Assembly: GCA_013376995.1 (NCBI GenBank)
Contig: JACAAZ010000009.1
Location: 62,001-126,000, forward strand
Direction: 5' to 3'
Length of the DNA stretch: 64,000 nt
DNA from: Bacteroidota bacterium
Lineage (GTDB): Bacteria > Bacteroidota > Bacteroidia > Bacteroidales > UBA4417
Below the pieces are notes generated by a model. The model did no database searches, was not told the origin of the DNA, and was given only the letters and a program-made list of their open reading frames with translations. Positions within the stretch are counted from its first letter, which is position 1; the number at the start of each line of letters is the position of its first letter. Positions 22,939 to 52,674 of this stretch are shown here, piece by piece. A program made the translations under genes and the position numbers.

Positions 22939-25900
22939 ATGAAAAAGTATTTACTAATAGCATTTCTCTGCATTTTCATAAGTGCGTTAAGTCATGCTCA
23001 ACTCACAGGGGTAAAGAATATCCCTGTGGACTATTCCACGATAGCTCTTGCTATTAGTGACCTTAACAGCCAGGGCGTCGGCCCCGGAGGTGTTTTGTTC
23101 ACAATTGACTCACTCTACACTGAAACTTTTACATCTCCAACAGCTGGAAAAATAACTGCAACCGGGACCCTATCAAATCCAATTACTTTCCAAAAAAAAG
23201 GTTCAGGCGCTAATCCTTTGATTACAGCAGGAGTTGGCACCACAACAACCCTGGATGGGATAATTGTAATTGCAGGTGGTGATTATATCACTTTCGATGG
23301 AATTGACCTGAAAGAGAATTCAGCAAATACAACCGCTACTACCCAGATGGAATGGGGATACGCCATCCTGAAAGCTTCTGCTACCGATGGAGCACAGAAT
23401 ATTACCATCAGGAATTGTACTGTAACACTCAATAAAGCTAACACAGCTACAGTGGGCATTTATGCAAACAATCACCTAACATCAGCCTTAACTGCACTTA
23501 CTGTAACCAGTACCAGCGGAGCTAATTCGAACCTGAAGATTTACAATAATACCATTAACAACTGTTATTCAGGGATCTCTGTAACCGGATTCAGTGATGT
23601 GGTTGCCAATGCTTTTGCATTTTATGATCAGAACAATGAAATTGGAAAGGACGGCGCAAACACTATTGGCAGTTTCGGGGGATCGACCGTAGCTTCCTAT
23701 GGAATCTATACCAAATACCAGAATAACCTGAAAGTAGCAAACAATACAATTAACGGATCAGTTACCGGAACCGGTAGCTGTTCAGGCATCCAATTGGATG
23801 CGTCTTCCAATGCTAGTCTTGAACTTTATGGAAATACTGTTAAAATTGCCTATGCCGGAACCAGCGGCACTTTTAACGGGATTTTTGATAATATGGGTAC
23901 AACCGCTACCAATAACCTGGTCGATATACACGATAACACCGTTACACAATGCACTATGCCCCTGGCTACCACGGGTTCATGCAACTATATCAATATCCAG
24001 CATGCAGGCGTGCCATTCAGCTTTCATGGCAACTCCGTGACTTCCAATACCTATGGCTCCACTTCAACAACTAGCCTTGGACAAATTGCTTATATCTACC
24101 TCTTTGGCAATCCGGCCACGCTTTCAACAGTGGATGTTTACAGCAATGAAGTCAGCAATAATACAAGACCCCAGATAACGGCAGGAAGTGCTGTTACTTA
24201 CCTCTATTATATGGGATTAAAAGGCAGTGTCCAGAACACCTATAATAATGCTGCCATTAATAATACTTTTACTTCAACTGGCCAGACACATGGATATTAT
24301 GTAGCTAATGCTTCAGCAACAAAAAACATCTATGGCAATACTCTGAATGGACTTACTTCAGGTGGTATTTCATATGGAATATATGTAGCAAGTGGTTCTA
24401 ATGCGAATATTTATCGCAACAAAATCCAGAATATCACTACATATTTGAATACAACAGCCAGTGCAACTTTGGTAGCCGGGATCTATATTGGTAACGGCAC
24501 TTCATTGCTTTCTGTGAATGTCTATAATAATATGATTTCTGAAATCTTTGCACCTTCAGGTACTTATGCTAAATCAGTTGGGGGAATAGTATTGTTCAAC
24601 AGTGCAGCAACAACTGATATAATTGGAATCTATGATAATACTGTTTACCTGACAGGTACCGGGGCAGCAGGATTTGGAAGTTCTGCCTTTTACGTTCATT
24701 CGAACAGCGCACCAACGTCTAATCCCAATTTTGACCTTAGGGGAAATATCTTTGTGAACAATTGTACTCCGGGGACTGGAGGACTCGTAGTTGCTTTCAG
24801 GACAAATTCAACTGATAATTCAAAATACTCAAGCCTGTCAAATAATAATGATTTTTGGGCCGGGACTCCCGATGCATCCCATCTCATTTTAAATGATGGT
24901 ACCAACAGTTTTCAGACGTTAGCAAGTTTCAAAGCGTGGGTTTATCCCAATGAAACCGTTTCTGTTACTGAGAATCCTTCTTTCGTAAATGTTGTTACTT
25001 CTCCATTTGATCTGCATCTTAACCCTGCGGTAGCCACCCAATGTGAATCAGCCGGACAGGTTATATCAACACCTGTATCCATAACCACTGATTTTGATGG
25101 GAATGGCCGTTTCCCAAATTCAGGTTACCCTGTTGGAACCGGCACTCCATTTAACCCTGATCTTGGGGCTGATGAAATTGGCGGTTTACAGAATGATATT
25201 ACAGGCCCGTGGATACAATATACCCCCCTGGGAAATGCGCCAAACGGAAGTGCCAGGGTTCTTACTGCCACCATCCAGGATGCATCAGGCATGCCAACTT
25301 CAGGAACAGGGCTTCCCAGGCTTTACTGGAGAATCAACAGTGGTTCATGGAATTCTGCACAAGCGGTTTTTGTCTCAGGAAATTCGTATAACTTTACTTT
25401 TGGGGCAGGATCCAACTTCAATGATGTTGTATCCTATTATATCGTTGCACAGGATCTGGTCAGCACATCAAATGTTGGTTCATCGCCTTCACCGGGAGCC
25501 ACAGGATATACTTCTAATCCGCCTGCATGCAGCACTCCCCCTAATGCACCCTCGACCTACACAAACCTGGGGGCAATTACAGGCACTTTCCATGTTGGCG
25601 TTGGAAAAACCTATACTACAATAACAGCTGCTATTAATGATCTGAATTTTAAGACCAGGACAGGCCCGGTAACCTTTTTGCTTGATGATGCTACCTATCC
25701 ATCAGAAACTATTCCTATTACCATCACATCTTCAGCAGGAGCAAGCGCGGTGAATACAGTAACTATAAAACCTAACGCTGCCAACACGGTTCTGATTTCA
25801 GGAATAAATACACATGCTGTTGGAAGTGATGTCGAAGGTATATTCCTTATTAAGGGTGCACAGTATATCACAATAGACGGCTCCAATACAGGTACGCTCA

Positions 25901-28353
25901 GTTTGACTGAAAACCAGGCTATGACCATCGAAAACACAGACTATTCAGGAAATACTTCTGTTTTAGCTTTCTCAAATAGTCCAGGTGCCGGAACTTCGCA
26001 TATCAAAATTCAGAATTGCGTTATCCAGGCTGTAACATCGCTGGTATGGGCTACCTCGGTTGTTACGTTTAGTAATACAAACGGGGGGTATGATAATATT
26101 ATTCTCAATAACAACATTATCAGGCAGGGGAAATTTGGGATGACAATTTATGGAACAGCTACAAGCCCTGCTAACAATATCCAGGTAACAAACAATGTCA
26201 TTGGTTCCGCTGATGATTCCAAATCTATTACCTGGAGAGGTGTGGATGCACAATATTGCAATAACCTGCTTGTCCAGGGAAATGAAATAATGGGGCAACC
26301 ATCCGGTAACCAACAATTCAGTATGGTCGGGATTAATTTTGATCATTGTACAAATTCAAAAATCAACAAGAACATTGTACACGACTGGATACTGAATGAT
26401 ATTTCGGTATTTAGTGTAGGCATCTCCTATTTTGATTTAAGTTCATCTCATGGAGAAATTACGAATAACCTGGTTTACAATGTGGCAGCTTATGGATCAA
26501 ACCTGAGTCCTACCCAGGCTGGCGCTCGTGGCATGGACATAGAGCGGACAAGCGACTTGCTTATTGCTAATAACACAGTTAGGTTAAATGGCGCATACCT
26601 GGGTGATGGTGATGGTTCGGGAGTCAATCCGGGAACAACTTCCAGTTGTATATATTTCGCAAGTGTGGCCTCAGGCGTTGACTTCAGAAACAATATCCTC
26701 AACAACTCTATGACACGCCTGCCAGGAGCTTCTTCTCCTTACACTAACACTTATGCTATTGCCTGTGGCGGTGGAAACAACCCTTTCACCTATTGTGATA
26801 ATAACGACTATTTCGGTGATGGTGTCAACCCCTATGTAGGCTATGCGAACTCTGTTACCATGCAGTTTTTGAATGACTGGAAGTTATGGACTGCCAAAGA
26901 TTGGTCCTCTATTAATGATGATCCGCGTTTAACCTCGACTACCAACCTGCTCCCACTTACCGGTTCCCCTGTAATAGGAACAGCTGTTCATTTAACTTCC
27001 GTACCCGATGACATTCTTGGAGTAACCAGGAATGCTTTTGCTCCAACTATGGGAGCCTATGAACTTCCTGTTTATCCTGTTACCTTTAATTTGGATATGT
27101 CGACGGCAGCAGGCTTCACTCCCGGAACCGATCTTGTATATATAGCAGGAAACTTCCCGGGTGCATCCAGCTGGAACCAGCCAGGTACAAACCCGAATCT
27201 ATTGATGTCCCAGGTCGGAACTACGCTCACCTACACACTTACCTTGTACTTGCCGGTAAGGGCTTATGAATACAAGTATTTTAAAAATGCCGGCTGGTCA
27301 GGCGGCGAATATGCGGGTGGCACAAACCGTTCAGCTACAATTACAACTACTACAATAGTCAATGACACCTGGGGCGGTTTGATCAATTGGGCTAACCTCC
27401 AATGGCCAGGGACAGGTTCGATAAATTTCGGAGGATCTTATGATGTATATGCCCAGGTTTACATTCCAAATGGTATTACAGCATCTTCAGGTGCTACCTA
27501 TGGTTTGCAGGCATGGATTGGATACAGTACTACAAATACTGATCCTGGCACCTGGACAGATTGGGTGCCGGCGTCTTTCTCAGGTCAAGCATATGACAAT
27601 GATGAGTTCAAAGCCGACCTTGGCTCTGCAATTACAGGATCAGGAACCTATTATTATGCAAGCAGGTTCCAGTATGGCAATAACCCATATGTGTATGGAG
27701 GATTCAATGGCGGATACTGGAATGGAACTTCGAACATTTCAGGAGTATTGAATATTGCAGCCCCTCCGACAAAGACCCTGAATGTTAAGCTCTTCCTTGA
27801 AGGATTGTATAACACTTCTACTTCTTTAATGAACCAGGCACAAAGTATATCAGGGCCACAATTTGGTTCTGGTATCGCTGACCAGGTGACTGTTGAACTT
27901 CATAATGCTGTTGCCCCATATGGAGTGGCTTATTCCTCAAATAATGTAAATCTTCTTACTACTGGAAACCTCTCGGTAAATAGTGTTCCCGGAGCATTGT
28001 CAGGATCTTTCTACATCGTAATCAAACATCGCAATAGTATTGAAACCTGGAGTGCAGCACCAATCGTTATTGGCATGACCAGCCCGGTAAGCTATGATTT
28101 TAGCTCTTCCTCTGCCCAGGCATTTGGAAACAACCTGAAGTTGATGGGGACTATATATGCTATTTATGCCGGAGATGCAAACCTGGATGGTGTGGTTGAC
28201 GGATCGGATATGGCCGCCATTGACAATGCCAGCACATCGATCCTGATCGGGTACCAGACAGAGGACGTAAATGGAGATGGTGTTGTAGACGGTTCTGATA
28301 TGGCGATCATTGATAACAATGCTACTTCGATTGTACAGGTAATGAAACCTTAG
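22939..28353 (+). CDS. Giant secreted beta-helix protein with CBM-like domain and dockerin-like C-terminus
   Basis: 1804 residues. The signal peptide (ending SALSHAQ) is followed by a parallel beta-helix region (about 60-720, many NNTI / YNNTV / GNTVKI turns), a Fn3/Ig-like stretch (about 750-870) and a second beta-helix (about 875-1370). Then comes a cassette shared with its neighbours: a CBM20/E-set-like domain (about 1379-1480, FNLDMSTAAGFTPG to YEYKYFKNAGW), one W-x-N-L-Q module (about 1483-1608) and the common C-terminal module (about 1611-1804). That module has KHRNSIETWS and two calcium-loop motifs, DANLDGVVDGSD and DVNGDGVVDGSD. No T9SS type A domain. Probably an extracellular polysaccharide-binding or lyase-like protein, but no catalytic residues were recognised in the helices. 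AACCCAAAC precedes the start. Confidence 0.85.
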   Translation: MKKYLLIAFLCIFISALSHAQLTGVKNIPVDYSTIALAISDLNSQGVGPGGVLFTIDSLYTETFTSPTAGKITATGTLSNPITFQKKGSGANPLITAGVGTTTTLDGIIVIAGGDYITFDGIDLKENSANTTATTQMEWGYAILKASATDGAQNITIRNCTVTLNKANTATVGIYANNHLTSALTALTVTSTSGANSNLKIYNNTINNCYSGISVTGFSDVVANAFAFYDQNNEIGKDGANTIGSFGGSTVASYGIYTKYQNNLKVANNTINGSVTGTGSCSGIQLDASSNASLELYGNTVKIAYAGTSGTFNGIFDNMGTTATNNLVDIHDNTVTQCTMPLATTGSCNYINIQHAGVPFSFHGNSVTSNTYGSTSTTSLGQIAYIYLFGNPATLSTVDVYSNEVSNNTRPQITAGSAVTYLYYMGLKGSVQNTYNNAAINNTFTSTGQTHGYYVANASATKNIYGNTLNGLTSGGISYGIYVASGSNANIYRNKIQNITTYLNTTASATLVAGIYIGNGTSLLSVNVYNNMISEIFAPSGTYAKSVGGIVLFNSAATTDIIGIYDNTVYLTGTGAAGFGSSAFYVHSNSAPTSNPNFDLRGNIFVNNCTPGTGGLVVAFRTNSTDNSKYSSLSNNNDFWAGTPDASHLILNDGTNSFQTLASFKAWVYPNETVSVTENPSFVNVVTSPFDLHLNPAVATQCESAGQVISTPVSITTDFDGNGRFPNSGYPVGTGTPFNPDLGADEIGGLQNDITGPWIQYTPLGNAPNGSARVLTATIQDASGMPTSGTGLPRLYWRINSGSWNSAQAVFVSGNSYNFTFGAGSNFNDVVSYYIVAQDLVSTSNVGSSPSPGATGYTSNPPACSTPPNAPSTYTNLGAITGTFHVGVGKTYTTITAAINDLNFKTRTGPVTFLLDDATYPSETIPITITSSAGASAVNTVTIKPNAANTVLISGINTHAVGSDVEGIFLIKGAQYITIDGSNTGTLSLTENQAMTIENTDYSGNTSVLAFSNSPGAGTSHIKIQNCVIQAVTSLVWATSVVTFSNTNGGYDNIILNNNIIRQGKFGMTIYGTATSPANNIQVTNNVIGSADDSKSITWRGVDAQYCNNLLVQGNEIMGQPSGNQQFSMVGINFDHCTNSKINKNIVHDWILNDISVFSVGISYFDLSSSHGEITNNLVYNVAAYGSNLSPTQAGARGMDIERTSDLLIANNTVRLNGAYLGDGDGSGVNPGTTSSCIYFASVASGVDFRNNILNNSMTRLPGASSPYTNTYAIACGGGNNPFTYCDNNDYFGDGVNPYVGYANSVTMQFLNDWKLWTAKDWSSINDDPRLTSTTNLLPLTGSPVIGTAVHLTSVPDDILGVTRNAFAPTMGAYELPVYPVTFNLDMSTAAGFTPGTDLVYIAGNFPGASSWNQPGTNPNLLMSQVGTTLTYTLTLYLPVRAYEYKYFKNAGWSGGEYAGGTNRSATITTTTIVNDTWGGLINWANLQWPGTGSINFGGSYDVYAQVYIPNGITASSGATYGLQAWIGYSTTNTDPGTWTDWVPASFSGQAYDNDEFKADLGSAITGSGTYYYASRFQYGNNPYVYGGFNGGYWNGTSNISGVLNIAAPPTKTLNVKLFLEGLYNTSTSLMNQAQSISGPQFGSGIADQVTVELHNAVAPYGVAYSSNNVNLLTTGNLSVNSVPGALSGSFYIVIKHRNSIETWSAAPIVIGMTSPVSYDFSSSSAQAFGNNLKLMGTIYAIYAGDANLDGVVDGSDMAAIDNASTSILIGYQTEDVNGDGVVDGSDMAIIDNNATSIVQVMKP

Positions 28354-28406
28354 AAGGAATTTAATCTATTTGAACCAAGTATCCATTTTAATATTCAAGA
28401 ATCAAA

Positions 28407-28430
28407 GGGGCGGGCTTAAAAGCCTGCCCT
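28407..28430 (+). terminator. Hairpin after the first giant gene
   Basis: GGGCGGGCTT and AGCCTGCCC form a 9-bp stem about 55 nt after the stop, without a T-run. It could be an RNA-stability hairpin, with the real terminator being the next hairpin at 28496. Confidence 0.45.
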
Positions 28431-28495
28431 AATGTTAAAACACTATCAATACTTGTTTGGGTTTGGGTCAAAAACCGTTATAGGATTGATATGAA

Positions 28496-28882: not shown

Positions 28883-28969
28883 GAAGACAGTTATACGGAG
28901 AAAAGTATTATCAGATAGATAAATTTAATTTTTCATTAGAGTGATTCTTTCAGACTGAAAGATTAACCG

Positions 28970-29226: not shown

Positions 29227-32200
29227 ATGAAAACTTTTTTACTCCAACGCAAATCAGCGTTTCTATTGCTATTTGTACTTTTTCTTATTTGCGGAATTCT
29301 TACTCCTACCTTATCCAGGGCAGATATTTATCAACCAGAAGGGTTAAACATGCCCGGCAGCTGGAATTCCTGGATAAATCCTCCCAGCAATTTGGCCATA
29401 GCAAATAATAGCCAGGTATCCGGAGGAAGACTTACTAAAATTACATCAGGAACAAGCCGATGGCAAACCATTTTCAGTGTCGCAGCCACCGGTGGCGATT
29501 TCACGGCAGGAACCTATTCCTGGTTGTTTACCAGTGGTCCGTCCGCCAATGCTTTTGCCAATAAATGGGCCAATGTAAATGTTACCATGAATACTGTGCA
29601 GACCTATGTCAAGGAAGGGTCAACCAACAACTCTATCACCCTGGTTAATGGTAAATGGTATACCATGAACTGGAAAGACAATGGTTATGCAAATACTGAA
29701 GGCATATTCATGGAAACCTCTGCACAACCGGTTACACTTTCGTCGCTTTCTGTTCCATCCGGCATCCTGCAGGGCCAAACAGCAACTATTACTCTCACAA
29801 CTGCTGCCTCACCTTCAACTGAGGAAAAATTCTACCTGCGCTACTCAATCGATAACTGGGCAACATCTTCCGTGGTCACTTTTTCGATGAGCGGGAGTTC
29901 CGGCACTGCTGTCATTCCTGCCCAGGCATCAGGTATTACAGTTCAATATTATGCTTTCTCTTCAACAGTTGCAGGCATAAGCAGCAATTATGACATGTAT
30001 ACGCTTAAATTCAATAATAATTCAGGAACAAATTTCAGCTATACCGTAGCTGGGTTGAGTAATTTAGCGAATATCCTAACCTTTTCATTCCCTCAGCAAA
30101 CTACCTCTGCAACAATCAATTCCACTTCCGGAACCGTAAGCATTGAAGTTGCCTATGGGACGGTACTTACAAGCCTCACTCCTACCATCACCGTATCTCC
30201 GGGTGCAACTATAAATCCCCTCAGTGGCGTTGCACAAAACTTCTCTTCACCATTTAATTATATTGTTACTGCCCAGAATGGGACTACAACCAAAACCTGG
30301 ACCATCACTGTAACCACCGCTGCACCACCTGCAGCCCAGTATGGGTTGCGTGATGACGCTGGAGTTAATCTTCCTACTCTCACTTATTGGTACACCGGCC
30401 AGTTAACGGATATCACGGAAAAGGGGTCACAGTTCAACAATAAAAATCTTGGTTCTTTAAATGCGCTCTATTTAAAAGGGTCGACAATAAAATCCTGGAA
30501 AACAACTGGTGGTGACGTTTCAGGGGCCCAGTTCAAATATAAAGTCTGGGCAGTAGGAGGAACAGAACCTGCAACTTATACCGAACGGGCGGTTGCCTGG
30601 ACCAGTGATGACGGAAGTGGAAACCAAACCTGGTCAGCATTCGGGGCTGAAATAGGAATTACGAATGGCCTTACATCTGGAAACTACAACCTTAAAATCC
30701 TTTTCAGCATAACCGGAACGGGGGTCGCCGGAACCACAACCGATGGAGCTTATACCGCCACATTCACCTATGAACAGTTTAGCAGCCTGGCAGAGATCGT
30801 TTCTTTCAGTCTGCCGCAACAAGCTTCACCAGCAACAATCACTTCAGCTGCCGGCACTGTTAATATGCAGGTAGTTTACGGGACTTCATTAACAAACCTG
30901 GCGCCGGCCATTGCTGTTTCACCTGGGGCGACCATGACACCTGCCAGCGGAGTTGCCCGCGACTTTACCACACCCAAAACCTACCTGGTTACTGCTGAGA
31001 ATGGCACCACAACCAAAACCTGGACTGCAACCATTACTGTTGCATCAACTGCAATTTCTTGGGCAAACCTGCAATTCCCCGGTACAGCCAATATTGCCCT
31101 GGGCCAGAATTTTGATGTGTATGGACAGGTTCTGGTCAGCGGTGTTTCAGGGCAACCAACACAAGTTCCCGGCCTGCAGGCATGGGTGGGTTATAGTACT
31201 ACCAACACGGATCCCAGCACCTGGACAAACTGGATCTCAGCCGGATACAAGGGAGCTGCCGGCCCCAACGATGAATTTAAAGCGAATATCGGCACCTCAC
31301 TACCTTCGAATGGTACTTACTACTATGCAACCCGTTACAAACTAAACGGCGGCAGCTATGTATATGGGGGATATTCAGCCACGGGCGGTGGTTTCTGGAA
31401 TGGTACCACTTACATCAATGGCACAGTAACTGTTACTTCTCCTTCTATTACCTGGGTAAACCTCCAGTGGCCAGGAAGCCAATCTATAGAGCCTTCCCAG
31501 TTATTTAATGTTTATGGAAGGGCATGGATACAAGGATACAGCGGTGGATCCACACAATTCCCTACACTACAGGCATGGATTGGTTATAGTACTACCAACA
31601 CGGATCCCAGTACCTGGACAAACTGGATAAGTGCAGGTTACAACGGGGCAAGCGGCAATAACGATGAATTCCTGGCTAACCTGGGTGCAGTTATGAATAC
31701 AAACGGAACGTATTATTATGCAACCCGCTTCAAAGTATATAACCAGGCTTATGTTTACGGAGGATTTTCTGATAGTGGCGGTGGTTTCTGGAACGGAACT
31801 ACTAATATTAACGGAGTGCTTACCGTTGGCATCAATATAGACTGCAATGCATATAATGGTGCAGCATACTGCACCCCGCCAATGCCTCACGACAATGACT
31901 CGGTTACACTCTATTTTGATGCTACAAAAGGCAATGCAGCCTTGCTGAATTATGCCGGTGATGTATATGCCCATACTGCTGTCCTGACCAATCTGAGCAG
32001 CGGCCCTTCTGACTGGCGTTATGTAAAATCAAACTGGGGCGTGAATACTCCTGATACCAAACTAACCCGTATCTCCCAGAATTTATATAAACTTACTATT
32101 AACACTCCCAGGAGTTATTACAATGTCCCTGCCGGTGAAACCATCCAGAAAATGGTATTTGTCTTCAGGAGCGATCTGCCTCAAGCAGGTGGCTCCTACC

Positions 32201-41598: not shown

Positions 41599-44500
41599 AT
41601 GAAAAAGTTGTTACAATTAAGTTTCATGCTACTTCTCTTATGCGGAGTCAGCATGGCGCAGAAAACAAAGATTCTTACTGCTCTCAGTGAGAGCGTCGAA
41701 TCTACTGGTGGTAACTCATCAGTCGGGCTTTTAGGTGTTACACCTAATGATGCTCCTATGGCCAGTACATCAGCAATTGTATTGCCAACTGACGGAGGCA
41801 CGTCACAAAACAGCCGTGCTCCTAGCAATTACTTTAAATACCAGCGCACTGAATACCTGATTACTCCTGCCGAAATGGCAACAAGTGGCCTGGTGACAAG
41901 TACGGCTATCGATGCAATCGGTTTCCTGGTGCAGGCAGCTGGTGTTGGCACACTGAGCGGAACTCTGAATATTTACCTGAAAAACACGTCAGATGCTACG
42001 TATACTTTAGGCTCTACCTGGACCACTACCGGTTTCACACAGGTTAGTACGAATGCCACCTATACAATCCCCATTAATGCAAATTATTTTCTCATCCCGT
42101 TTACAGGCGGCTCTACTTTTACTTATACCGGAGGTGGCGTATATGTAGCATGGGAATATAGTTCTCCCAGCGGAACAATTGGGTCAACCCCTGTAACACA
42201 TTATTGCAATTCAACTGGTCTTGTAAACGGACTTTATGGAGGCAGAGGTACTTCAATGCCTACTACTTTAGCAGCAAGCTCTTTTAGGCCAGCTACTTTC
42301 TTCAGTACTGTTCCTGAGACAGATATCATTAATATTACGAACCTTTATCCTGCAGGTAAAGTTCCAACTCCTTTCGGAACACCATCTCCTATCAGTGTAA
42401 GGGTTGCAAATGTATCAGATGTTTCATCTGCCACCTATGATCTGACTGTTACTGTTCAGGATGCTGTTACCTATGTAACCAGGTACACTTCTACTCAATC
42501 AGGTATTACGTTAGCTGCTGGCACTGTTGGTACCACTACTTTTAACGGATGGACCCCAACGATTTCAGAAAATGTAATAATTTTTGCAACTGCTACACCT
42601 GCAGCGGGTGAGACTTATACACTTAATAACTCCTCTTTAACGTATTCGTGTAATGTGAATACAAATCTTTTCTCATATAACTATAGTACAGCTTCGCCAC
42701 CGACAGGTTATGGATTCACAGCTCCGGGATATGCAATATTTGCGTCCAAATTTACCATGAATGGGGCTGGGCAAATACCAGGTGCGAACTTAGTTATCGC
42801 AAATAGTTCAACGATAACAGGGAACAGTATATCAGCAGTAGTGCTTAACAGTGCAGGGGTGATTGTTGCAACTTCTGCTAGTTATACACTTCTTGCTACT
42901 GATGTCGGGCTTACTAAAAACTTTACTTTCCCCACTCCTCCTGCCTTTACCAATGAAGTGTTTTATGTCGGAATGCTCACTTCTTCCGCTGCTACTACAT
43001 ACTATCCTATGGGTATGTTCAATGAAATTCCTTCAAGGGGTGGTATAAATTATACATTCCCTGCTACAGGTGGTACACCAACTGAAACTGTATTCAATTA
43101 CCGGTATGGAATTGAAGCTCAGGTTGCTCCTGTTGCTGGTGTAGTAAATCCAGGAGCATTGTCTGTTACCCCGGTAAGTACAACCCAGATCAATCTTGGT
43201 TGGAGCCTTAATCCAAGCAATGAGAATGTATTGCTGGCATGGAGTACGGATGGTGTTTTCGGAACTCCTGTAAATGGAACAGCTTATGTTGCCGGCAATA
43301 CGATTGTTGGTGGAGGAACTGTTCTGCAATACAATAATAGCACATCTTTCAGCCATACCGGATTAGCTCCCGGCACACATTATTATTACAAGATATGGTC
43401 AGGCAACGGAACCGCTTTTTCATCAGGTGTAGCCGGAAATGCATTTACCATCTGCAATTCTTCAGCTGCGCCATGGACAGAAAATTTTGAGCTGGCTACC
43501 TTCCCTCCAAGTTGCTGGACGAAAAGCGCATCACCAACATGGTTGAGGTCTTCAGCATGTAGTGGTTACGGAGTTGGAACCGCTTCAGCAAAAGCAGATT
43601 TCTTTAATATTTCAAGCGCGGTTCCATTCGACCTGGTTTCTTTACCCTATACTTCCGGTTCGCTGGTCAGTCCTATCCTGAAATTTGATTATGCTTATGC
43701 TGGTTATGATGATACAGGCGGACCCTATATTGATAAGCTGGATATATATTATTCCACCAACAATGGTGTAAGCTATACCTTATTATTAGATATGCCAGGT
43801 GGGCTTACCGGTATACTTAACACTTACGGGCCTACCTCATTGGCTACCGCTTTTGTGCCAACTTCTGCTCAATGGGCTTCACAGACATTAGCTTTGCCTG
43901 CAGGAACCAATTACATTAAGTTTACTGCTACCAGCGCTTATGGAAATAACCTCTACCTGGATAATGTTTCCGTGCAGGAAGCTCCTCTGTGTAATGTGCC
44001 CACTGCTCTTAACACAAGTGCTGTAACACAAACCACTGCGACCATTTCATGGACAGCTTCATCATCCAATCCTTCAGGTGGTTATCAATATGAAGTTCGT
44101 ACAAGTGGAGCCGGAGGAAGTGGAACTACGGGTCTTGTACTTTCCGGCACTACCCCGGCAGGAGTTGTAACAGCTAACCTTACTGGTTTAACAGCTGCAA
44201 CAAGTTATTCTTTATATGTTCGGTCAAATTGTGGCAGCGGGAGCTTCAGTGCATGGGCAGGTCCATCATCCTTCACAACTCTTTGTGCAACTGCTACAAC
44301 TCCATTCATTGAAACTTTTGAAGTTGGCGAAATGCATCCCTGCTGGACAATAAGCGGAGGAACCTATAATTGGCAGCTAGTTTCAGGAACAGGATTAAGT
44401 GGATATGGCAATGGTAGCCGTGCCTTCTATGCCAATTTCTTTAATATCAGCAGCGGTAGCCAATTTCAACTCTATACACCTGAATTTAATTCTGGCACAT

Positions 44501-46083
44501 TATCAAATCCCACCCTGGAATTTGATTATGCATATGCAACTTATAGTGGTGAGTTAGATGAAATGGATGTTTACTATTCGACTAACGGGGGACTGACCTA
44601 TTCATTGTTGCTGGCTATGCCGGGCGGTGCTACGGGAATACTTAATACAGGCGGAACTACCACTTCACAATTTGTACCGACTGCTTCACAATGGGCTACA
44701 AAAGCTTTGCCCTTACCTGCCGGAACAAATAAGGTTGAATTCCGTGCAATAAGCGATTTTGGAAATAACCTCTTCTTAGATAATATTAAAATTAAAGAGG
44801 CTACAACCACTTTTAATGTAGATATGTCAACTGCAGCAGGTTTTACACCTGGCACTGATGTAGTTTACCTGACAGGGAACTTCCCGGGCGCAACCTGGAT
44901 CACACCCGGCGATCCAGGAAGCATGGTTATGTCGCAGGTTGGTTCATCACTCATCTATACCCGCACCCTGGCATTAGCACCTGGAACATATGAATACAAA
45001 TATTTCAAGAACTCCGGTTGGAGCGGTGGCGAGTATGCCGGTGGAGCCAACAGATCAATAACGGTTACTACTACAACTACAGTCAACAATACATGGGGAG
45101 GCTCAATCAATTGGGCGAACCTGCAATGGCCGGGAACCGGTTCCATTACTGTCGGCGGTGCGTATGATGTATACGCACAGGCTTATATTGCAGGCGTAAC
45201 ATCAGTTGCAGGAGCTACCTACGGCTTGCAGGCCTGGATTGGCTACAGTACCAGTAATACAGATCCAAGCACCTGGACCAACTGGATCCCTGCACCGTTC
45301 TTCGGGCAAGCCTATGATAATGATGAATTCAAAGTTGATCTTGGAAGCACATTACCTGTCGGAACCTATTATTATGCAAGCCGTTTCCAATTTGGGAGTC
45401 AACCTTTCCTCTATGGTGGATTCAGTGGAACGAATGGTGGATTCTGGGATGGAACCAACAACATCTCTGGTGTCTTAACTATTTCTGCTGTAACTACAAA
45501 GACCTTAAATCTGAAGGTTTACCTGGAGAGCTTGTACAATGTTGGTACAGGCTTTATGAACCAGGCTTTAGGAGCTGGATCCGCACCTGAATTTGGCAGT
45601 GGAATAGCAGATGTCGTGACCGTTGAGTTGCACAACCAGGCCTCTCCTTTCGACCTTGCTCATACCTTCAGTAATGTAAACCTGATGACTAATGGTACTT
45701 TGTCAGTTACAACTGTTCCAGGTTCAATATCCGGTTCTTATTATGTAGTTATTAAGCACAGGAACAGCATCGAAACCTGGAGTGCAGCACCTGTATCATT
45801 CGGCGTGCCAAGTCCTGTAAGCTATGATTTCACTACCGGTATTTCGCAAGCCTACGGTGATAACCTCAAGTCTATGGGTACAATTTATTCCATATTTGGA
45901 GGTGATGCCACCCAGGATGGAATAGTTGATGGTTCTGATATGGCTGCCATTGATAATGCTTCAACCTCCATTCTTACAGGATACGTTGTTGAAGATGTGA
46001 ATGGTGATGGCGTTGTTGATGGTTCAGATATGGCCTTGATCGACAATAATGCCACTAGTGTTATTTCTGTAAAACGTCCATAA
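41599..46083 (+). CDS. Giant secreted MAM/Fn3-domain protein with CBM-like domain and dockerin-like C-terminus
   Basis: 1494 residues. The signal peptide (ending GVSMAQ) is followed by beta-rich regions with Fn3-like domains (about 515-610 and 795-890, both with Thr-rich strands and Y.YKIW / YSLYVR). Two MAM-like jelly-roll domains (about 620-790 and 900-1065) share ENFE, CW, FDYAYA, YYSTN and GNNL(Y/F)LDN. The shared cassette ends the protein: CBM20/E-set-like domain (about 1073-1168, FNVDMSTAAGFTPG), one W-x-N-L-Q module (about 1170-1296) and the common C-terminal module (about 1301-1494) with KHRNSIETWS and loops DATQDGIVDGSD and DVNGDGVVDGSD. It lacks a T9SS type A domain. The adhesin-like head suggests surface binding rather than catalysis. 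Confidence 0.85.
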   Translation: MKKLLQLSFMLLLLCGVSMAQKTKILTALSESVESTGGNSSVGLLGVTPNDAPMASTSAIVLPTDGGTSQNSRAPSNYFKYQRTEYLITPAEMATSGLVTSTAIDAIGFLVQAAGVGTLSGTLNIYLKNTSDATYTLGSTWTTTGFTQVSTNATYTIPINANYFLIPFTGGSTFTYTGGGVYVAWEYSSPSGTIGSTPVTHYCNSTGLVNGLYGGRGTSMPTTLAASSFRPATFFSTVPETDIINITNLYPAGKVPTPFGTPSPISVRVANVSDVSSATYDLTVTVQDAVTYVTRYTSTQSGITLAAGTVGTTTFNGWTPTISENVIIFATATPAAGETYTLNNSSLTYSCNVNTNLFSYNYSTASPPTGYGFTAPGYAIFASKFTMNGAGQIPGANLVIANSSTITGNSISAVVLNSAGVIVATSASYTLLATDVGLTKNFTFPTPPAFTNEVFYVGMLTSSAATTYYPMGMFNEIPSRGGINYTFPATGGTPTETVFNYRYGIEAQVAPVAGVVNPGALSVTPVSTTQINLGWSLNPSNENVLLAWSTDGVFGTPVNGTAYVAGNTIVGGGTVLQYNNSTSFSHTGLAPGTHYYYKIWSGNGTAFSSGVAGNAFTICNSSAAPWTENFELATFPPSCWTKSASPTWLRSSACSGYGVGTASAKADFFNISSAVPFDLVSLPYTSGSLVSPILKFDYAYAGYDDTGGPYIDKLDIYYSTNNGVSYTLLLDMPGGLTGILNTYGPTSLATAFVPTSAQWASQTLALPAGTNYIKFTATSAYGNNLYLDNVSVQEAPLCNVPTALNTSAVTQTTATISWTASSSNPSGGYQYEVRTSGAGGSGTTGLVLSGTTPAGVVTANLTGLTAATSYSLYVRSNCGSGSFSAWAGPSSFTTLCATATTPFIETFEVGEMHPCWTISGGTYNWQLVSGTGLSGYGNGSRAFYANFFNISSGSQFQLYTPEFNSGTLSNPTLEFDYAYATYSGELDEMDVYYSTNGGLTYSLLLAMPGGATGILNTGGTTTSQFVPTASQWATKALPLPAGTNKVEFRAISDFGNNLFLDNIKIKEATTTFNVDMSTAAGFTPGTDVVYLTGNFPGATWITPGDPGSMVMSQVGSSLIYTRTLALAPGTYEYKYFKNSGWSGGEYAGGANRSITVTTTTTVNNTWGGSINWANLQWPGTGSITVGGAYDVYAQAYIAGVTSVAGATYGLQAWIGYSTSNTDPSTWTNWIPAPFFGQAYDNDEFKVDLGSTLPVGTYYYASRFQFGSQPFLYGGFSGTNGGFWDGTNNISGVLTISAVTTKTLNLKVYLESLYNVGTGFMNQALGAGSAPEFGSGIADVVTVELHNQASPFDLAHTFSNVNLMTNGTLSVTTVPGSISGSYYVVIKHRNSIETWSAAPVSFGVPSPVSYDFTTGISQAYGDNLKSMGTIYSIFGGDATQDGIVDGSDMAAIDNASTSILTGYVVEDVNGDGVVDGSDMALIDNNATSVISVKRP

Positions 46084-46344: not shown

Positions 46345-49300
46345 TCAGGGTTTGATTACTTGTATTATACCGGTAGAATTATTATCCACGAGCGCCATAT
46401 CTGAAGAATCCACCTGGCCATCTCCATTAACATCAGTATCGAAATACCCGCGTAAAATAGCAGTACTGGCATTTTCAACCATTGCCATATCCGAACCATC
46501 TACAACTCCGTCCTGGTTAACATCCCCGCCATAAATCAGCGAATACAATCCAGTAACCCGCAAGTTGTTACCATAAGCTTGTGAAACTGAAGTAGTGAAA
46601 TCAAAATTTACAATACCGTTGCTGCTGAAATACAATGGATTTGCACTCCAGGTTTCAATGCTATTCCTGTGTCTCACAACAATATAATAAGAACCTTCAA
46701 CACTTTGAGGAATATTGGCAGTAATTGCTCCATCGGTACTCAAATTAAGGTTACTGAATGTATAGGCCAATGAAAATGGTGCTAATGATTCATGTAATTC
46801 AACATTAACCTTATCTGCAATGTTCCCGGTAAATTGATCACCGGCTTCTCCCCTGGCCTTATTCATTATGCCATTTCCAGAGTATAGTCCCTGGAGCAGG
46901 ACTTTAAGGTTCAAGGCCTTACCACTTTGCACGACCATGGTTAACAGGTTTGAACTTGCCGGGTTTCCCTGGGAACACAATGCGCTGGAAGTAAGAATAC
47001 AATTTACCTGATCGTTGTCAGCAGGAATATAGGCATACAAATCACTATTATCTCCAACAGGCAATCCGTTTACTTGCCACAAATAGGTTGGATTATTGCC
47101 GCCATTTTCCGGCACAGCCGAAAATGTCACAACATTCCCACTGGCAACAGGGTTAGAAGATGCAGAAATACTGATTCCTACCGCAGAAACAGGGTTAACA
47201 GCCAGTGTAATGGAGTTTGATTCGGCAGGGTTGCTACTTGCACAACTGACACTGGAGGTAAGGAAACATTTCACAACATCTGAATTTGCCGGTACATAGC
47301 TGTATGTTGAGGTCCCGCTAGCCACCTCAAGGCCATTGACTTGCCAGGCAAAAGAAGGAGTTTCGCCTCCATTAATTGGTGTTGCTATAAATGTAACCTC
47401 TGTTCCGGCGCATACTTCCGACGCAGATGCAGACACTCCAACGCTTACTACCTGCAGTGGGTTAACCTGCATGGAAATGGCATTGGAAATTGCAGGACTC
47501 CCATTGGAACAGATGATGCTGGATGAAAGCACACATCTTACGACATCCCCATCCGCGGGCATATAGGTAAAGCCCGAGCTTCCTGTTCCTGAATTTATTC
47601 CATTTACCTGCCATTGGTAAGCCGGAGTTGGACCTCCATTTACCGCGTTTGCTGTGAAGGTAACCATCGCTCCATCACACACCTGATTTGCTGATACTGT
47701 AATTCCAACACTTACCTCACTAACAGGGCTAACCTGCATTGCAATATAATTTGAAGATGCCGGGCTGCCATTGGCACATGAAATATTGGATGTGAGAATG
47801 CAGCTAACAACATCACCATTTAAAGGAATATAAGTAAAAGTAGAAGTTCCTGTTCCGGTGTTTGAGCCGTTAACCTGCCATTGGTAAGATGGTGATGTTC
47901 CCCCATTGATCGCTGCCGATGCAAAAGTCACTTCCGTGCCCGAACATACCTGGGTAGCGGTTGCTGAAATTCCAATGCTGACATCCTGCACAGGATTCAC
48001 ATGCATGGTTACAGCATTTGATATTGCCGGGTTTCCACTTGCGCAAGCCAGGTTTGATGTAAGGATACAGGTAACAATATCATTATCAATGGGTGTATAG
48101 CTGAAACTGCTGCTATTTGTTCCTGTGGCAACATTATTCACTTTCCACTGGTAGGATGGTGAAACCCCACCATTTACAGCCGTAGATGTGAATGTAATCA
48201 CAGTCCCGGCACACACCTGGTTATCGGATTCAACAATATTGATGCTGGCAGGAATAACAGGATTGACAGCAATTGTTGCCAAAGCTGAAGTTGCACAACT
48301 TCCCGGTGAAATACATCCTCCTTCTCCCCTCACATAATATGCAGTCGTTGATAAGGGAGATACCGTAATTGAGGTTCCGCTGCCGACAAAAGTACCCCCG
48401 CAGGAACCTGAATACCACAGCCAGTTGGTGGCGCTGTTGAGGTTACCAGATGAAATACTAAGAACTGTGCTCTCGCCGGCACAAATTGGATTCTTTGTCA
48501 CTGCTATTGTTGGCAGATCAGGATTCATGCAGGTTTCAGCAAGCTGGAATTCTCCGAGGCCAGATGAAGATAGCCCTGTTATTTGCGTGCTTGTGCTTGT
48601 CCTTGTACCTATTACCGGATAGCTCCAGACTGAAGCTGAATACCTGCCCGCAACAAGGCTGGCAGGCGTAGTGGATGCATCAAGGTCTCCAGCGGTAAAG
48701 TTAAATATAGCATTCAACGCTGAAAAAACAGCCCCTCCATTTGTAATAGACCAATACCTGTTAACAGACCTGTAAGGATTCAGCGATGAAGCCGAAACAC
48801 TCGGATGATCACCAGGCACCGTTTTGATTGTCAGAGAATTAGCAGAAGTAATACTACCAGTTGGGAAATTCAGGTTTACCGGGGCGTAAACCATGGCATC
48901 ACCTACTTCATAGGTTATATTGGATACTGCTGAGGCATTTGTCCAAATATACTTGGCGAGGTTTCCGTTTACATAGCCATTAGTTCGCGTCAGGCTTCCT
49001 CCGAAAACATAAACTGTATTGGTTCCTGTGGTCACAACTCCGTTAGTCAGGAAAATGTTATCAGCCCTGAATTGTTTCCCTGAAGCTGTGCACAGAATAC
49101 CAGAAGGGTTATCGATGGCAAGCTTCTTAAGCAGCGTGTTACTGCTGCCACCTACAAATTGTTGTACTGAACCGTTGAATTTAACAAGTGCCGTCGTGCC
49201 GGAATTGCTGTAGTCGAAGCCTCCATTGCAAACCCAGTTTCCTTTTACATCGAGTTCAGTACCGGATGCCATTTTTAAGGTAGCCCCGGACTGAATAGTA

Positions 49301-52300
49301 ATATCCTTACAGTTGGCTATTGTTACACTGCTGATATACGGCATATTTGTTACTCCGGTAGGGATCAATACATTCGTTGTGGCAGATGGGATAGCATTGC
49401 TGCACCAGTTGGATGCAGTATGCCAGTCGGTATTTGTTGTCCCTGTCCAGAAACCCTGACAATCTGTAACCTGAACATCATCAATTGCCCAGTAGTATTC
49501 CCAGCTGCCTGTATAATTCCATTTAAATTTTACCTGCGACTGGCCTCCAGCAGCATTGATAACAAATACAGCTGATGCAGGATTGGCAGTAGTTGATGTA
49601 TAGGTTTGCAGTAATACCCAGGTGCTTCCATTGTCAATTGAATAATATACTTTGCCGGCACTATTGGAATATTGCATGAAATAGTGATTAAACTGCAGTA
49701 CAACTGAAGAATAGCCGGAACAATTTATAGTTGGAGTTATCAGGTCGGAATTTTGTGTGTTTCCACTACCATATCCATCGCTGTTCAGGTATGCATAACT
49801 TCCATTTAAAGTTGGACCTGAGATGGTTCCAAATTTCCATACTTGTCCATTGCCAACATAATCTTTGATCTTCCAGCAACCTGGAAGCGAGGTAGTACTG
49901 AAGTTCTCAACGAAAGGAAGGCTGAATGGATTGCAATCTGTGGTCTCATTGGTGCTTACCCCGGCAGAATATTGATTGCTGCCATTAACTGACCAGATTT
50001 TGTAATAATAAGTTGTTGCAGGCGACAATAACGAATGATTGAAAGAACTGGCATTCCCGTTGAAGATGATCAGACCACCTCCTGCAAGGGTATTTCCTGC
50101 GGTATATATTGTACCATCCATAGGAGAGCCAAATACAGGTGAAGCAGACACAGCAACCATCACATTGTCGTCATTCACATTTTTGGTCCAGGTAAGGTTG
50201 ATTTGGGTAGGGCCTGCAGATGAAGCTATAAGATTTGAAGGATCAATCACGTTTACATTGATAAGGTCACTTTGCCAAAGTCCGCGTCCATATGTGGCAG
50301 CTTTAATCTTAGAATTGGCAGGAGTGGCATCATAATAGATCTCCATTTCCCTGACATCAACTGGTGGCAACCCATTGCTAAACAATACCCAATAAGGCAT
50401 TGCTGAATTCTTAAACCATACCCCTGTTTGATTTCCGATATAGATGCCTTCATTTGTGTTCTTATCATATACCAGGCAGTTAATAAATAATGAAGGAAGA
50501 TTGCCTGAAATATCAGTCCAACTGGCTCCTTTATCAATTGACTTGTAAATTTTATAGCCTGCAGTGGCATATACAATATTGGCATCTGTAGGATGGGCTT
50601 TGACATCTGTAGGCGTACTTCCACCGGGCAAAGCACATGAAGTCCATGTAACAGAAGCTGCTGCTGCGGTTGCATTATCCGATCTTTTCATAGCCCCGGA
50701 CCTGACAACATACAGAACATTAACATCTGCAGCAGACTGTTCAAGCACTTTGCAGACCGAGGTTTCACCACTTGAAATAGCTGTCCAGCTAACAGAAGAG
50801 GAAGGTGTTGCTTTTACATTATCGCAACGGAATACGTTTTCATATCCTGCGAACATAATGCTGGGATTTGTTCTATGCAGCATATAAGGTGTAACCCAGG
50901 ATCCTGATTCGTCGATGCTGATTCCATTGGTCCCGGTAGAAGCAATATTTGAATAGGAACCTGTCGGCCCCCCGCTGGAACGGCTTATAGCCCCCTGAAC
51001 ATAAGTATTGTAGCAATAATTTGTATTGCTATAATCAATAAGGCACTCCGTTCCATCACCTCCTCTTGTAGTATAAAATGAACTTGAATTCAGGGTTGCA
51101 GCAGATCCATTATCCTGGAATCCAACCAGGGTATAATTCGGGTTCGTTGCGCTTTGGCCCAATTTATAAACCTGGGAAATAGAAAGCCCACCTGAAATTT
51201 GTGTCCAATTGGTTCCTCCATTGCTGGTCCAGTAGATTCCACCGTCACAGCCAACGTAAAGTTTACCATTAAGTGGCGACCAACCATAACAATGCTGATC
51301 TGCATGAACGGAAGCTGCACACGAGGTTCCATAAGAATTCCCAACCCAATGACTGGTTATTGTCCAGGTAACACCTCCATTTGAGCTCTTCCAGTTGTTA
51401 ATGCTTCCAACGTAGACAATATTGGCGTTATTGGGATCAACAGTAACGCAAAGATCATAAGTGGATTGAGTACTTGTTCCACTGCCATCGCAGGAATAGT
51501 CAAAGATGTTAGGACTGGAAGACTGTATTGTAAAATTCTGCCCGTTGTCTGTCGAACGAAGTATTCCACCAAATGTATTGTCTGTAGATTTGATCTGAAC
51601 AAGATAAACATAAGATGAATTTGCTGGCGTAATACCGATTACCATCCTTGAACCGGCAGATGGGACTCCATTTGCAGCAGATATTTGTGTCCAGCTTTCT
51701 CCGGTATTGGATGACCGATAAAATCTCCCGCCTTCAGTAGCATAGACTACTGTTGGGTCTCCGGAATTGAACTTAATGTCTTTATAGTTACTTGTGTTCG
51801 ATGATTTCAGGACCCAGGTAGAGCCGCCATCAGTGGTCTTGTAAATGCCTGCACTGGTGGCTGCAATAATAGTGTTAGGATCAGATGGATGCATGACCAT
51901 TGCACCAACAACAACATTTCCCATGGTATTGCTTAACTGGTTCCAGGAAGTCCCTCCATCTATACTTTTAAAAACCCCAATTCCAGGAGCATCACCGGCA
52001 TCACGATCACCTGTTCCAATATAGATTATATTAGGATTAACAGGATTAACCAGTATGGATGACACGCCTAATTTGGGCAGGTTAGATGCCAGATTGGTCC
52101 ATGTAGTGCCTGCATCAGTAGTTTTCCAGAATCCTCCGGAAGGAGCACCAATATAAATCGTATTGGCATCAGTTGGATGAAAAGCAATGGCATTAATTCG
52201 CCCCATCCCTGTAGGCTGACCCGTGTTATTCACTGGGTAAGCAATCGGGCCCTGTAAAGCCCAGTTTCCTGAAGTAGAAGTAGAAGCATCAATCTCACTC

Positions 52301-52674
52301 ATGTACTTTTCATACTGATCTTTTACAAAACCGAAAGACTGCAGCTTACCATCCGGAAGTACGCGAGATTCGTTGATATACTCCCATCTTTTGAAAATAT
52401 AGTATCCATTACCTTCATATAACTCATTTTCACCTGCTTCTTCCTCATCCCTTTCAGATTTTCTTTCTTCTACAACCTGATGATTGTTCCAATAGCTATA
52501 AAAGGCGTTTTGCACATCCTGGAATTTTGAATTTGGATCTTGCATGAGATCATACCAGTGATATTTTGTTTCAGTCTTACCAGCTAGTGCATTTACCTGT
52601 GCTTGGATATGCTGAATGAAGAAAGTGGCTAAAAACAGTAAAGTAAAGGGCAGGATGAGTCGGTTGGCTTTCAT
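46345..52674 (-). CDS. Giant secreted Asp-box propeller protein with Ig-like repeats and dockerin-like C-terminus
   Basis: 2109 residues from the ATG at 52674, giving a clean signal peptide (MKANRLILPF... to HIQAQ); an ATG at 52701 is the alternative. About 140-800 is a sortilin/Asp-box (BNR) beta-propeller with about eight motifs such as KTTDAGTTW, KSIDGGTSW and KSSNGGVTW. A Fn3 domain (about 808-907), a MAM-like jelly roll, a long beta region (to about 1475), five Ig/PKD-like repeats of about 88 residues (1476-1915, each with YQW.VN and C.LTS.(L/I)(A/S)C) and the common C-terminal module (about 1920-2109) follow. The calcium loops are DVNQDGVVDGSD and DVNGDGQVDSSD. It has neither the W-x-N-L-Q nor the CBM-like domain. 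It lies downstream of a regulator and hybrid kinase on the same strand, facing the other four giants. Confidence 0.85.
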   Translation of the reverse strand: MKANRLILPFTLLFLATFFIQHIQAQVNALAGKTETKYHWYDLMQDPNSKFQDVQNAFYSYWNNHQVVEERKSERDEEEAGENELYEGNGYYIFKRWEYINESRVLPDGKLQSFGFVKDQYEKYMSEIDASTSTSGNWALQGPIAYPVNNTGQPTGMGRINAIAFHPTDANTIYIGAPSGGFWKTTDAGTTWTNLASNLPKLGVSSILVNPVNPNIIYIGTGDRDAGDAPGIGVFKSIDGGTSWNQLSNTMGNVVVGAMVMHPSDPNTIIAATSAGIYKTTDGGSTWVLKSSNTSNYKDIKFNSGDPTVVYATEGGRFYRSSNTGESWTQISAANGVPSAGSRMVIGITPANSSYVYLVQIKSTDNTFGGILRSTDNGQNFTIQSSSPNIFDYSCDGSGTSTQSTYDLCVTVDPNNANIVYVGSINNWKSSNGGVTWTITSHWVGNSYGTSCAASVHADQHCYGWSPLNGKLYVGCDGGIYWTSNGGTNWTQISGGLSISQVYKLGQSATNPNYTLVGFQDNGSAATLNSSSFYTTRGGDGTECLIDYSNTNYCYNTYVQGAISRSSGGPTGSYSNIASTGTNGISIDESGSWVTPYMLHRTNPSIMFAGYENVFRCDNVKATPSSSVSWTAISSGETSVCKVLEQSAADVNVLYVVRSGAMKRSDNATAAAASVTWTSCALPGGSTPTDVKAHPTDANIVYATAGYKIYKSIDKGASWTDISGNLPSLFINCLVYDKNTNEGIYIGNQTGVWFKNSAMPYWVLFSNGLPPVDVREMEIYYDATPANSKIKAATYGRGLWQSDLINVNVIDPSNLIASSAGPTQINLTWTKNVNDDNVMVAVSASPVFGSPMDGTIYTAGNTLAGGGLIIFNGNASSFNHSLLSPATTYYYKIWSVNGSNQYSAGVSTNETTDCNPFSLPFVENFSTTSLPGCWKIKDYVGNGQVWKFGTISGPTLNGSYAYLNSDGYGSGNTQNSDLITPTINCSGYSSVVLQFNHYFMQYSNSAGKVYYSIDNGSTWVLLQTYTSTTANPASAVFVINAAGGQSQVKFKWNYTGSWEYYWAIDDVQVTDCQGFWTGTTNTDWHTASNWCSNAIPSATTNVLIPTGVTNMPYISSVTIANCKDITIQSGATLKMASGTELDVKGNWVCNGGFDYSNSGTTALVKFNGSVQQFVGGSSNTLLKKLAIDNPSGILCTASGKQFRADNIFLTNGVVTTGTNTVYVFGGSLTRTNGYVNGNLAKYIWTNASAVSNITYEVGDAMVYAPVNLNFPTGSITSANSLTIKTVPGDHPSVSASSLNPYRSVNRYWSITNGGAVFSALNAIFNFTAGDLDASTTPASLVAGRYSASVWSYPVIGTRTSTSTQITGLSSSGLGEFQLAETCMNPDLPTIAVTKNPICAGESTVLSISSGNLNSATNWLWYSGSCGGTFVGSGTSITVSPLSTTAYYVRGEGGCISPGSCATSALATIAVNPVIPASINIVESDNQVCAGTVITFTSTAVNGGVSPSYQWKVNNVATGTNSSSFSYTPIDNDIVTCILTSNLACASGNPAISNAVTMHVNPVQDVSIGISATATQVCSGTEVTFASAAINGGTSPSYQWQVNGSNTGTGTSTFTYIPLNGDVVSCILTSNISCANGSPASSNYIAMQVSPVSEVSVGITVSANQVCDGAMVTFTANAVNGGPTPAYQWQVNGINSGTGSSGFTYMPADGDVVRCVLSSSIICSNGSPAISNAISMQVNPLQVVSVGVSASASEVCAGTEVTFIATPINGGETPSFAWQVNGLEVASGTSTYSYVPANSDVVKCFLTSSVSCASSNPAESNSITLAVNPVSAVGISISASSNPVASGNVVTFSAVPENGGNNPTYLWQVNGLPVGDNSDLYAYIPADNDQVNCILTSSALCSQGNPASSNLLTMVVQSGKALNLKVLLQGLYSGNGIMNKARGEAGDQFTGNIADKVNVELHESLAPFSLAYTFSNLNLSTDGAITANIPQSVEGSYYIVVRHRNSIETWSANPLYFSSNGIVNFDFTTSVSQAYGNNLRVTGLYSLIYGGDVNQDGVVDGSDMAMVENASTAILRGYFDTDVNGDGQVDSSDMALVDNNSTGIIQVIKP
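46930..48250 (-). repeat. Five tandem Ig/PKD-like repeats (about 264 bp each)
   Basis: Each unit encodes VSVGI.(A/V)SA..VC.G, then TF.A.(A/P).NGG..P.YQWQVNG and C.LTSS..C..G.PA.SN. The last unit has lost its first Cys (NPVASG), so its disulfide is likely absent. DNA similarity is moderate, so the duplication is not very recent. Confidence 0.75.

Follow-up and report, generated by a model that had tools for sequence, protein, structure and literature searches.

Why do five very large secreted proteins encoded in one stretch of a bacterial genome end in the same tail, and what is that tail for? The stretch (64,000 nucleotides of the Bacteroidota bacterium assembly GCA_013376995.1, contig JACAAZ010000009.1, positions 62,001 to 126,000; hereafter the window) holds five genes, all with intact open reading frames (ORFs), and each encoded protein closes with a C-terminal module of 191–194 residues (about 192). 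An original prediction, made from the letters of the window, saw in this module a common attachment, assembly or sorting cassette. We favour a particular form of that idea, to which we give a probability of roughly 0.62: proteins tailed by an X-module–dockerin dyad (XDoc) plug into cohesins displayed by the type IX secretion system (T9SS), where docking itself, display at the surface and the cargo's way out are inferred. The shared tail would combine an X-module-like beta sandwich with, behind it, a dockerin that binds calcium in two loops, forming a C-terminal plug that docks about 40 mostly large secreted proteins onto cohesin sockets. Part of these sockets would lie on proteins with a T9SS sorting domain, and so presumably be displayed at the cell surface; others would stand in rows on scaffolds that themselves end in the plug. 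A scaffold could dock to an anchor, and cargo to a scaffold. The source bacterium probably builds its own surface protein complex.

The shared C-terminal module

The five copies keep the motif order originally described for them and are 53–68% identical to the copy of gene 1 (Table 1). Each has two calcium loops of 12 residues (for example DATQDGVVDGSD and DVNGDGVVDGSD); the spacing, first given as 30–35 residues, proved to be exactly 30, from loop start to loop start, in all five. A profile of the five modules, run against the source genome (5.05 Mb, 43 contigs), gave 40 matches (best E = 2.5e-110). Chance likeness is excluded, because there are 40 matches and the best one outside the window reaches E = 3.5e-99. 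Inspection of all 40 placed 39 at 0–17 residues before the stop codon, and the final module residue is proline in 31. Of 125 copies at 77 loci of named relatives, 120 end at most 25 residues before the stop, and 111 of these 120 have proline as the last residue; three others have tails of 28–50 residues and two are at contig ends. Neither free occurrence inside proteins nor identity with an already described, unrelated domain was found. The single internal copy of the source genome (locus L113, 12966–18968, minus strand) is followed by 603 residues, at whose end two repeats resemble, by eye, the Fibrobacter succinogenes major domain.

The 5′ end is complete for 36 of the 39 copies in the source genome that score at least 30 bits. 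By a simple script, 34 of these 36 proteins have a signal-peptide-like start, one has a lipobox and 19 have an AxA-Q type site. With 34 such starts and one lipobox, module proteins look like ordinary Sec cargo and not like lipoproteins.

That the loops are of dockerin type I, as first read, is borne out by Pfam for all five modules and by the predicted fold. Isolated modules all match Dockerin_1 (PF00404) at E ≤ 1 (best 8.1e-10), the first with 26.4 bits against a cut-off of 22.9. On whole proteins, gene 5 alone passes (31.2 bits), gene 1 falls just under (21.4) and genes 2–4 have no match at E ≤ 0.001. A PDB sequence search with the module reached the dockerin half only, finding cellulosomal dockerins at E 0.0014 and weaker. 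Judged by Pfam, loops and symmetry, the module is assigned to the dockerin family, and cohesin binding is predicted.

The beta part had been said to match no named domain. Indeed, it has no named family in Pfam or NCBIfam searches, and for the module as a whole NCBIfam offered nothing better than a cellobiosidase CelK tail, far below threshold, and a second weak match. By predicted fold, however, the beta part does resemble something known. AlphaFold2 modelled the gene 4 module (window 45487–46080; 75-row alignment) with a predicted local distance difference test score (pLDDT) of 97.2 and a predicted template-modelling score (pTM) of 0.92. Foldseek against the PDB returned three hits at E ≤ 1e-3 (4u3s, 4fl4 and 2b59), all XDoc-containing. 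The match to 4u3s has E 9.4e-6 and template-modelling scores (TM-scores) of 0.52 (query) and 0.64 (target) over 197 columns; behind these three came an Ole e 1-type fold at E 0.003 and then transthyretins, none better than 0.015. A divergent module from Ignavibacteria, folded separately, reached pLDDT 94.9 (its other four models 77–83) and gave ten hits at E ≤ 1e-3, all of them XDoc-containing chains. On these models the beta part is a predicted X-module-like beta sandwich and the whole module a predicted XDoc; that it works like one is well supported by predicted fold and residue pattern together.

A further line of evidence comes from the symmetry of the two loops, which we compared position by position, against shuffles, in 154 full modules (36 from the source genome). 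The excess of loop-to-loop identity is highest at positions 10, 11, 13, 14 and 20 (z 12–18), smaller at 3, 5, 7, 17 and 18 (z 3–8) and absent at 2, 4, 6, 8, 9, 15, 16 and 19. Relatedness of the sequences as the sole source of this symmetry is weakened as an explanation, since the signal persists in 22 representatives below 45% identity in the beta part, where positions 10, 11 and 14 still rank top (z 6.7, 4.9 and 7.9). The residues at these contact positions differ from genome to genome: GSA/GSA occurs in 17 of 39 source-genome modules, LSV/LSV in all 11 of G457 and TGT/TGT in 4 of 8 and 4 of 6 in two other genomes (23 of the 194 copies in this tally have no genome assignment). Twenty copies from Ignavibacteria show a smaller excess with less specificity: z is 3.8 at position 10, 3.5 at 14 and 1.4 at 11, but also 3.7 at 9 and 3.5 at 17.

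Published passages on an Acetivibrio cellulolyticus cohesin–XDoc complex place positions 11 and 12 centrally at the interface and describe two binding orientations (PMC5141474); we read these positions as our 10 and 11, counted from the first aspartate. For Clostridium thermocellum XDocs, the corresponding passages describe two distinct faces (PMC5301203). Because the two halves of the module are near-copies at the contact positions in the source genome, the plug can probably dock in either of two orientations. A mirror-image, species-coded surface is the pattern that would be expected of a dual-binding dockerin with a co-evolving partner. Residues of calcium-ligand type at positions 1, 3, 5, 9 and 12 are kept in 97–100% of the 154 modules, in both loops, and stability alone would require the same of a tail that is only a calcium-stabilised end cap without any partner. 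Such a cap does not account for the agreement of the two halves at positions 10, 11 and 14, which vary between genomes, and we regard it as very improbable.

Cohesins as candidate partners

If the module is a plug, sockets should be found. A search for cohesin-like partners, as originally suggested, gave 17 Pfam matches in the source genome, 15 of them above the curated cut-off. Two proteins of about 950 residues and one of 706 residues have three cohesins each (Pfam 83.5, 86.4 and 70.1 bits); all three end in the module, one of them in a diverged copy. Our own cohesin profile (52 rows, from the source genome and related genomes) finds 26 copies in the source genome. Against the PDB it matched 37 sequences at E ≤ 0.1, the best being scaffoldin cohesins (1e-12). 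Thirty of the 37 are named as cohesin, scaffolding or anchoring protein and one is an antibody chain; the remaining two ‘endoglucanase’ and four NagJ chains we take to be cohesin-type.

The cohesins occur in several architectures: one cohesin with a T9SS type A domain, a cohesin with a type B domain (in other proteins), and one to four cohesins with a C-terminal module. At ten loci in six genomes, a gene for a cohesin with a T9SS tail adjoins a gene for cohesin with module (C12, C22 and C1 in the source genome, G000; C106 in G054; C437 in G014; C451 and C57 in G456; twice in G457; G412). At these loci, Pfam identified the T9SS ends at C12 and in one C1 cluster gene; the others were judged by eye. 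Near a contig end of the source genome (L098, contig 1, 2009–11618) are four small cohesin genes: a T9SS type A domain closes one, the module another, and a diverged module of WVLVELR type the remaining two. The anchor protein at L096 (15457–18999, minus strand) has a plain Dockerin_1 of its own directly before its cohesin and T9SS domain, so that a second dockerin type coexists with the module.

Module and cohesin also occur in the same genomes. Among 60 related genomes, eight have the module: five of the same genus, with 40, 41, 36, 15 and 4 copies, and G054 (41 copies), G018 (four weak ones) and G055 (one). A profile search found none in the eleven other genomes of the genus. At least four Pfam cohesin matches are present in all eight module genomes, against 2 of the 52 without it (Fisher p = 2e-8). 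The rank correlation between module and cohesin counts is 0.66 over the 60 relatives, 0.62 when genome size is allowed for and 0.82 within the genus.

The module extends well beyond these genomes. In a phylum sample, at least 55 of 395 genomes match a 49-row module profile at E ≤ 1e-3, counting the best eight candidates per genome, with part of the matches covering dockerin columns only. For a more distant-reaching scan, the 49-row alignment (A2) had no stretch conserved enough, and a narrower one (A3) was used. The named relatives that bear the module are mostly metagenome-assembled genomes (MAGs) of uncultured Bacteroidales or Bacteroidetes; at a guess from isolate names, some live in lakes. 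Pfam cohesins are found in 14 of 23 named module genomes, or 15 counting a match of our own profile in G460 (Pfam gives 1 and 0 cohesins in G459 and G460, our profile 9 and 1).

Tail exchange, export and rival readings

How do these proteins leave the cell? None of 207 distinct module ORFs has a T9SS sorting domain, whereas in the same DNA 119 ORFs have one of type A and 12 one of type B; the profiles were home-made (63 type A and 7 type B seeds) and the test covered these two types. Likewise, the five window proteins have no match to TIGR04183/PF18962 or PF13585 in Pfam and NCBIfam. The body of gene 5 has 63 matches in 26 of the 60 related genomes. Examining the stretches of 41 of the 62 matches outside the window, and adding the window gene, we found that 30 of these 42 ORFs end in a type A domain, five in the module and six in neither, with one cut short; one of the six (L272) is type A-like by eye. 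All five module-ended bodies come from module genomes. The closest homologue with a readable end (61% identical) is from G042, a genome without modules; a partial match in G014, 65% identical, continues past its contig end and lies outside the examined set. Paralogues within the source genome end in type A domains (C10, L257; C16, L292) or in neither (C9, L291; C39, L270). Since homologues of gene 5 end in either, the module replaces the sorting domain on the same body, and elsewhere this body is, from its sequence, typical T9SS cargo. Replacement of T9SS domains by the module throughout a genome is rejected: type A domains occur in 23 of 23 module genomes, with 13 to at least 150 matches each.

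Several findings weigh against cohesin docking. The first is export, since module proteins would have to cross the outer membrane without the T9SS sorting domain that their homologues carry. The T9SS may read the module, a cohesin-bearing T9SS protein may take the docked bearers along, or they may leave by another route. Second, when scaled to query length the TM-score to XDoc reaches only about 0.5, with a root-mean-square deviation of 5–6 Å, so that the two parts are not placed identically in module and XDoc. Third, modules of G001, G011 and G014 are mostly asymmetric among the types shown. Fourth, shared ancestry enters the co-occurrence figures, and the counts are not independent because part of the cohesins belong to module proteins themselves; our own profile, moreover, gives 0–7 cohesin matches in seven genomes of the genus that lack the module. 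Over the 23 named genomes the two counts do not correlate (rho 0.05; 0.41, p = 0.085, when the four Ignavibacteria are left out). By neither profile was a cohesin detected in these four Ignavibacteria (79, 16, 111 and 135 modules), in G463 (17 modules, a Bacteroidetes MAG), or in G476, G467 and G471 (3, 2 and 1 modules), all of them genomes of unstated completeness.

Lastly, we inspected four cohesin gene pairs in module-less genomes. In G002 (L295) and G013 (L294), of the same genus, a single-cohesin gene and a three-cohesin gene are both type A-tailed; in G046 a four-cohesin gene ends in neither T9SS domain nor module, and in G041 the gene end is cut by the contig. Because G002 and G013 have the pair without the module, the pair is independent of it; the anchor–scaffold pair is thereby weakened as a mark of the module, cohesin docking loses ground and a T9SS signal gains.

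Absence of the module where a partner gene is lacking had been proposed as a check. This holds for the eight module genomes among the 60 relatives and breaks down in the Ignavibacteria, G463, G467, G471 and G476, so a detectable cohesin as obligatory partner is rejected for the wider family. The module-rich ones among these, together with the plain Dockerin_1 in L096, favour a different receptor, such as a protein of the outer membrane or a second module copy, with cohesins serving plain dockerins. Co-occurrence among relatives, the neighbouring genes and the XDoc fold speak against this, and we consider it quite improbable. A cohesin receptor fits in the Bacteroidales group; beyond that group it is unproved. 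Several Ignavibacteria loci (L194, L200, L203, L207 and L210–L212) have several adjoining module-ended genes each. The Melioribacter roseus genome paper describes the cellulases there as being without dockerin or scaffoldin domains.

Could the module instead be a new class of T9SS sorting signal, replacing the usual C-terminal domain, with the cohesins secondary or unrelated? The T9SS would then read the module, perhaps via a dedicated shuttle protein. Much of the above is consistent with this: the C-terminal position and final proline, here and in named relatives; the mutual exclusion of module and T9SS ends among the 207 ORFs; the tail swap on the gene 5 body, with its closest readable homologue in a module-less genome; three-cohesin scaffolds that are type A-ended in G002 and G013 and module-ended in the source genome; and Ignavibacteria with many copies and no detected cohesin. 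SprA, moreover, is present in 24 of 25 module genomes, but the T9SS is near-universal in the relatives (TIGR04183, type A, in 58 of 60), so that co-occurrence says little. The predicted fold is that of an XDoc and not of the Ig-like type A domain, and genome-specific mirror-image contacts are more in keeping with a dockerin receptor that co-evolves than with a single secretion machine common to all. A T9SS review, in the passages available, names types A, B and C only (PMC10202324). We judge a pure sorting signal rather unlikely. On scaffold as on cargo, module and T9SS domain seem to substitute for each other, provided that the scaffolds are orthologous.

A cassette for attachment, assembly or sorting thus has the support of the 40 copies, 39 of them C-terminal, of the cohesins and of the T9SS tail swaps, and any of the three may be its main role. 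A broader conjecture would join them: XDoc dyads could be a phylum-wide, calcium-dependent signal for both sorting and docking in Bacteroidota and Ignavibacteria, a new T9SS-compatible class of C-terminal domain that exports its bearers and plugs them into species-specific receptors. Cohesin would be one receptor type, and another would serve the Ignavibacteria with more than 100 copies. We think this unlikely.

Cargo, known systems and the window genes

Returning to XDoc–cohesin docking, which we prefer, what would be docked? A cargo scan covered 32 of the 40 module proteins, 27 without cohesins and five as cohesin proteins. Enzyme-type bodies were recognized in 7 of the 27 (amylase, GH57, esterase, papain, two C39-like and one BNR/sortilin type); the rest have beta-helix, kelch or DUF5122 propellers, BACON, GEVED, fn3 or Ig units, or nothing. 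Plant-polysaccharide enzymes, which would mark a cellulosome, are not the main cargo among these proteins, and by sequence the cargo does not look like that of a plant-fibre cellulosome.

XDoc–cohesin docking is known mainly as the anchor of Gram-positive cellulosomes, in which a few scaffoldins carry the XDoc and Gram-positive surface proteins act as anchors. Non-cellulosomal cohesins and dockerins outside cellulolytic Firmicutes were reportedly described by Peer et al. in 2009. The type II XDoc dyads of cellulosomes (C. thermocellum ScaA/CipA and CipB, A. cellulolyticus ScaA; PDB 2b59, 4u3s, 4wi0 and 5k39) have the same beta sandwich and two-loop dockerin, and only such structures are matched at E ≤ 1e-3 by the predicted fold of the window module. 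Unlike them, the module has about 40 diverse bearers in one genome, part of the cohesin proteins have T9SS domains, and the beta part belongs to no named sequence family in Pfam or NCBIfam.

The nearest published idea that we found is the cohesin–dockerin complex proposed for ‘Candidatus Stygibacter’ (Cloacimonadota) from lake MAGs (PMC8542988). In the passages available, that account likewise has C-terminal dockerins on secreted enzymes and a scaffold of tandem cohesins whose C-terminal domain is assigned to surface attachment, its authors citing a T9SS review on this point. It gives a handful of dockerin proteins and one scaffold, and these passages, unlike the present case, mention no XDoc, 40-fold expansion or anchor–scaffold pair. 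The T9SS C-terminal domains of types A, B and C (PMC10202324, as far as the passages available describe them) resemble the module in being C-terminal, attached to the same bodies and numerous per genome; the module differs from them in predicted fold and in its calcium loops.

Docking of XDocs to cohesins is thus already known, and new here is its recasting as T9SS-linked surface assembly in Bacteroidota. Literature searches by title and abstract found no title on XDoc in Bacteroidota, which does not establish absence from print. If cohesin docking is correct, it would be a general means for T9SS bacteria to assemble surface complexes of dozens of large proteins, most of them without recognizable enzyme domains, and would provide a large natural set of species-coded plug–socket pairs.

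Table 1. The five window genes and their modules (window positions; Ca, calcium).
Feature	Position	Strand	Length (aa)	Beta part	Dockerin part	Ca loops	Description
Gene 1	22939..28353	+	1804				Signal-peptide-like start; body without Pfam match, beta-helix-like by eye; C-terminal module
Module, gene 1	27772..28350	+		27772-28170	28171-28350	28174-28209, 28264-28299	
Gene 2	29227..36366	+	2379				Alpha-amylase and DUF5018 domains, repeats; C-terminal module
Module, gene 2	35788..36363	+		to 36183	36184-36363	36187-36222, 36277-36312	
Gene 3	36780..40907	+	1375				Signal-peptide-like start; no Pfam match; C-terminal module
Module, gene 3	40332..40904	+		to 40724	40725-40904	40728-40763, 40818-40853	
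Gene 4	41599..46083	+	1494				fn3-type body; C-terminal module
Module, gene 4	45499..46080	+			45901-46080	45904-45939, 45994-46029	
Gene 5	46345..52674	-					Sortilin/BNR-type body, Ig-like repeats; C-terminal module
Module, gene 5	46348..46920	-		46528-46920	46348-46527	46489-46524, 46399-46434	

Gene 5 opens with an ATG at 52674, and its first residues resemble a signal peptide. The heads of the five proteins had been called unrelated, which does not hold for genes 1–4. By eye, the translations of these four genes (22939–46083) have a second repeat in common, the WANLQ unit of about 105 residues (WANLQWPG ... LQAWIGYSTTN.DPSTWTNW ... GTYYYASRF ... GGFWNGT ... GVLT); it occurs in several copies in gene 2, and a Pfam scan gave no match for it. 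Genes 1, 3 and 4 also have in common, again by eye, a unit of the type (V/L)DMSTA.GF.PG(T/S)D, which directly precedes the WANLQ unit. The strand of gene 5 also encodes, immediately upstream of it, a TPR protein and a hybrid histidine kinase (52832–56383, minus strand), which are possible regulator candidates.

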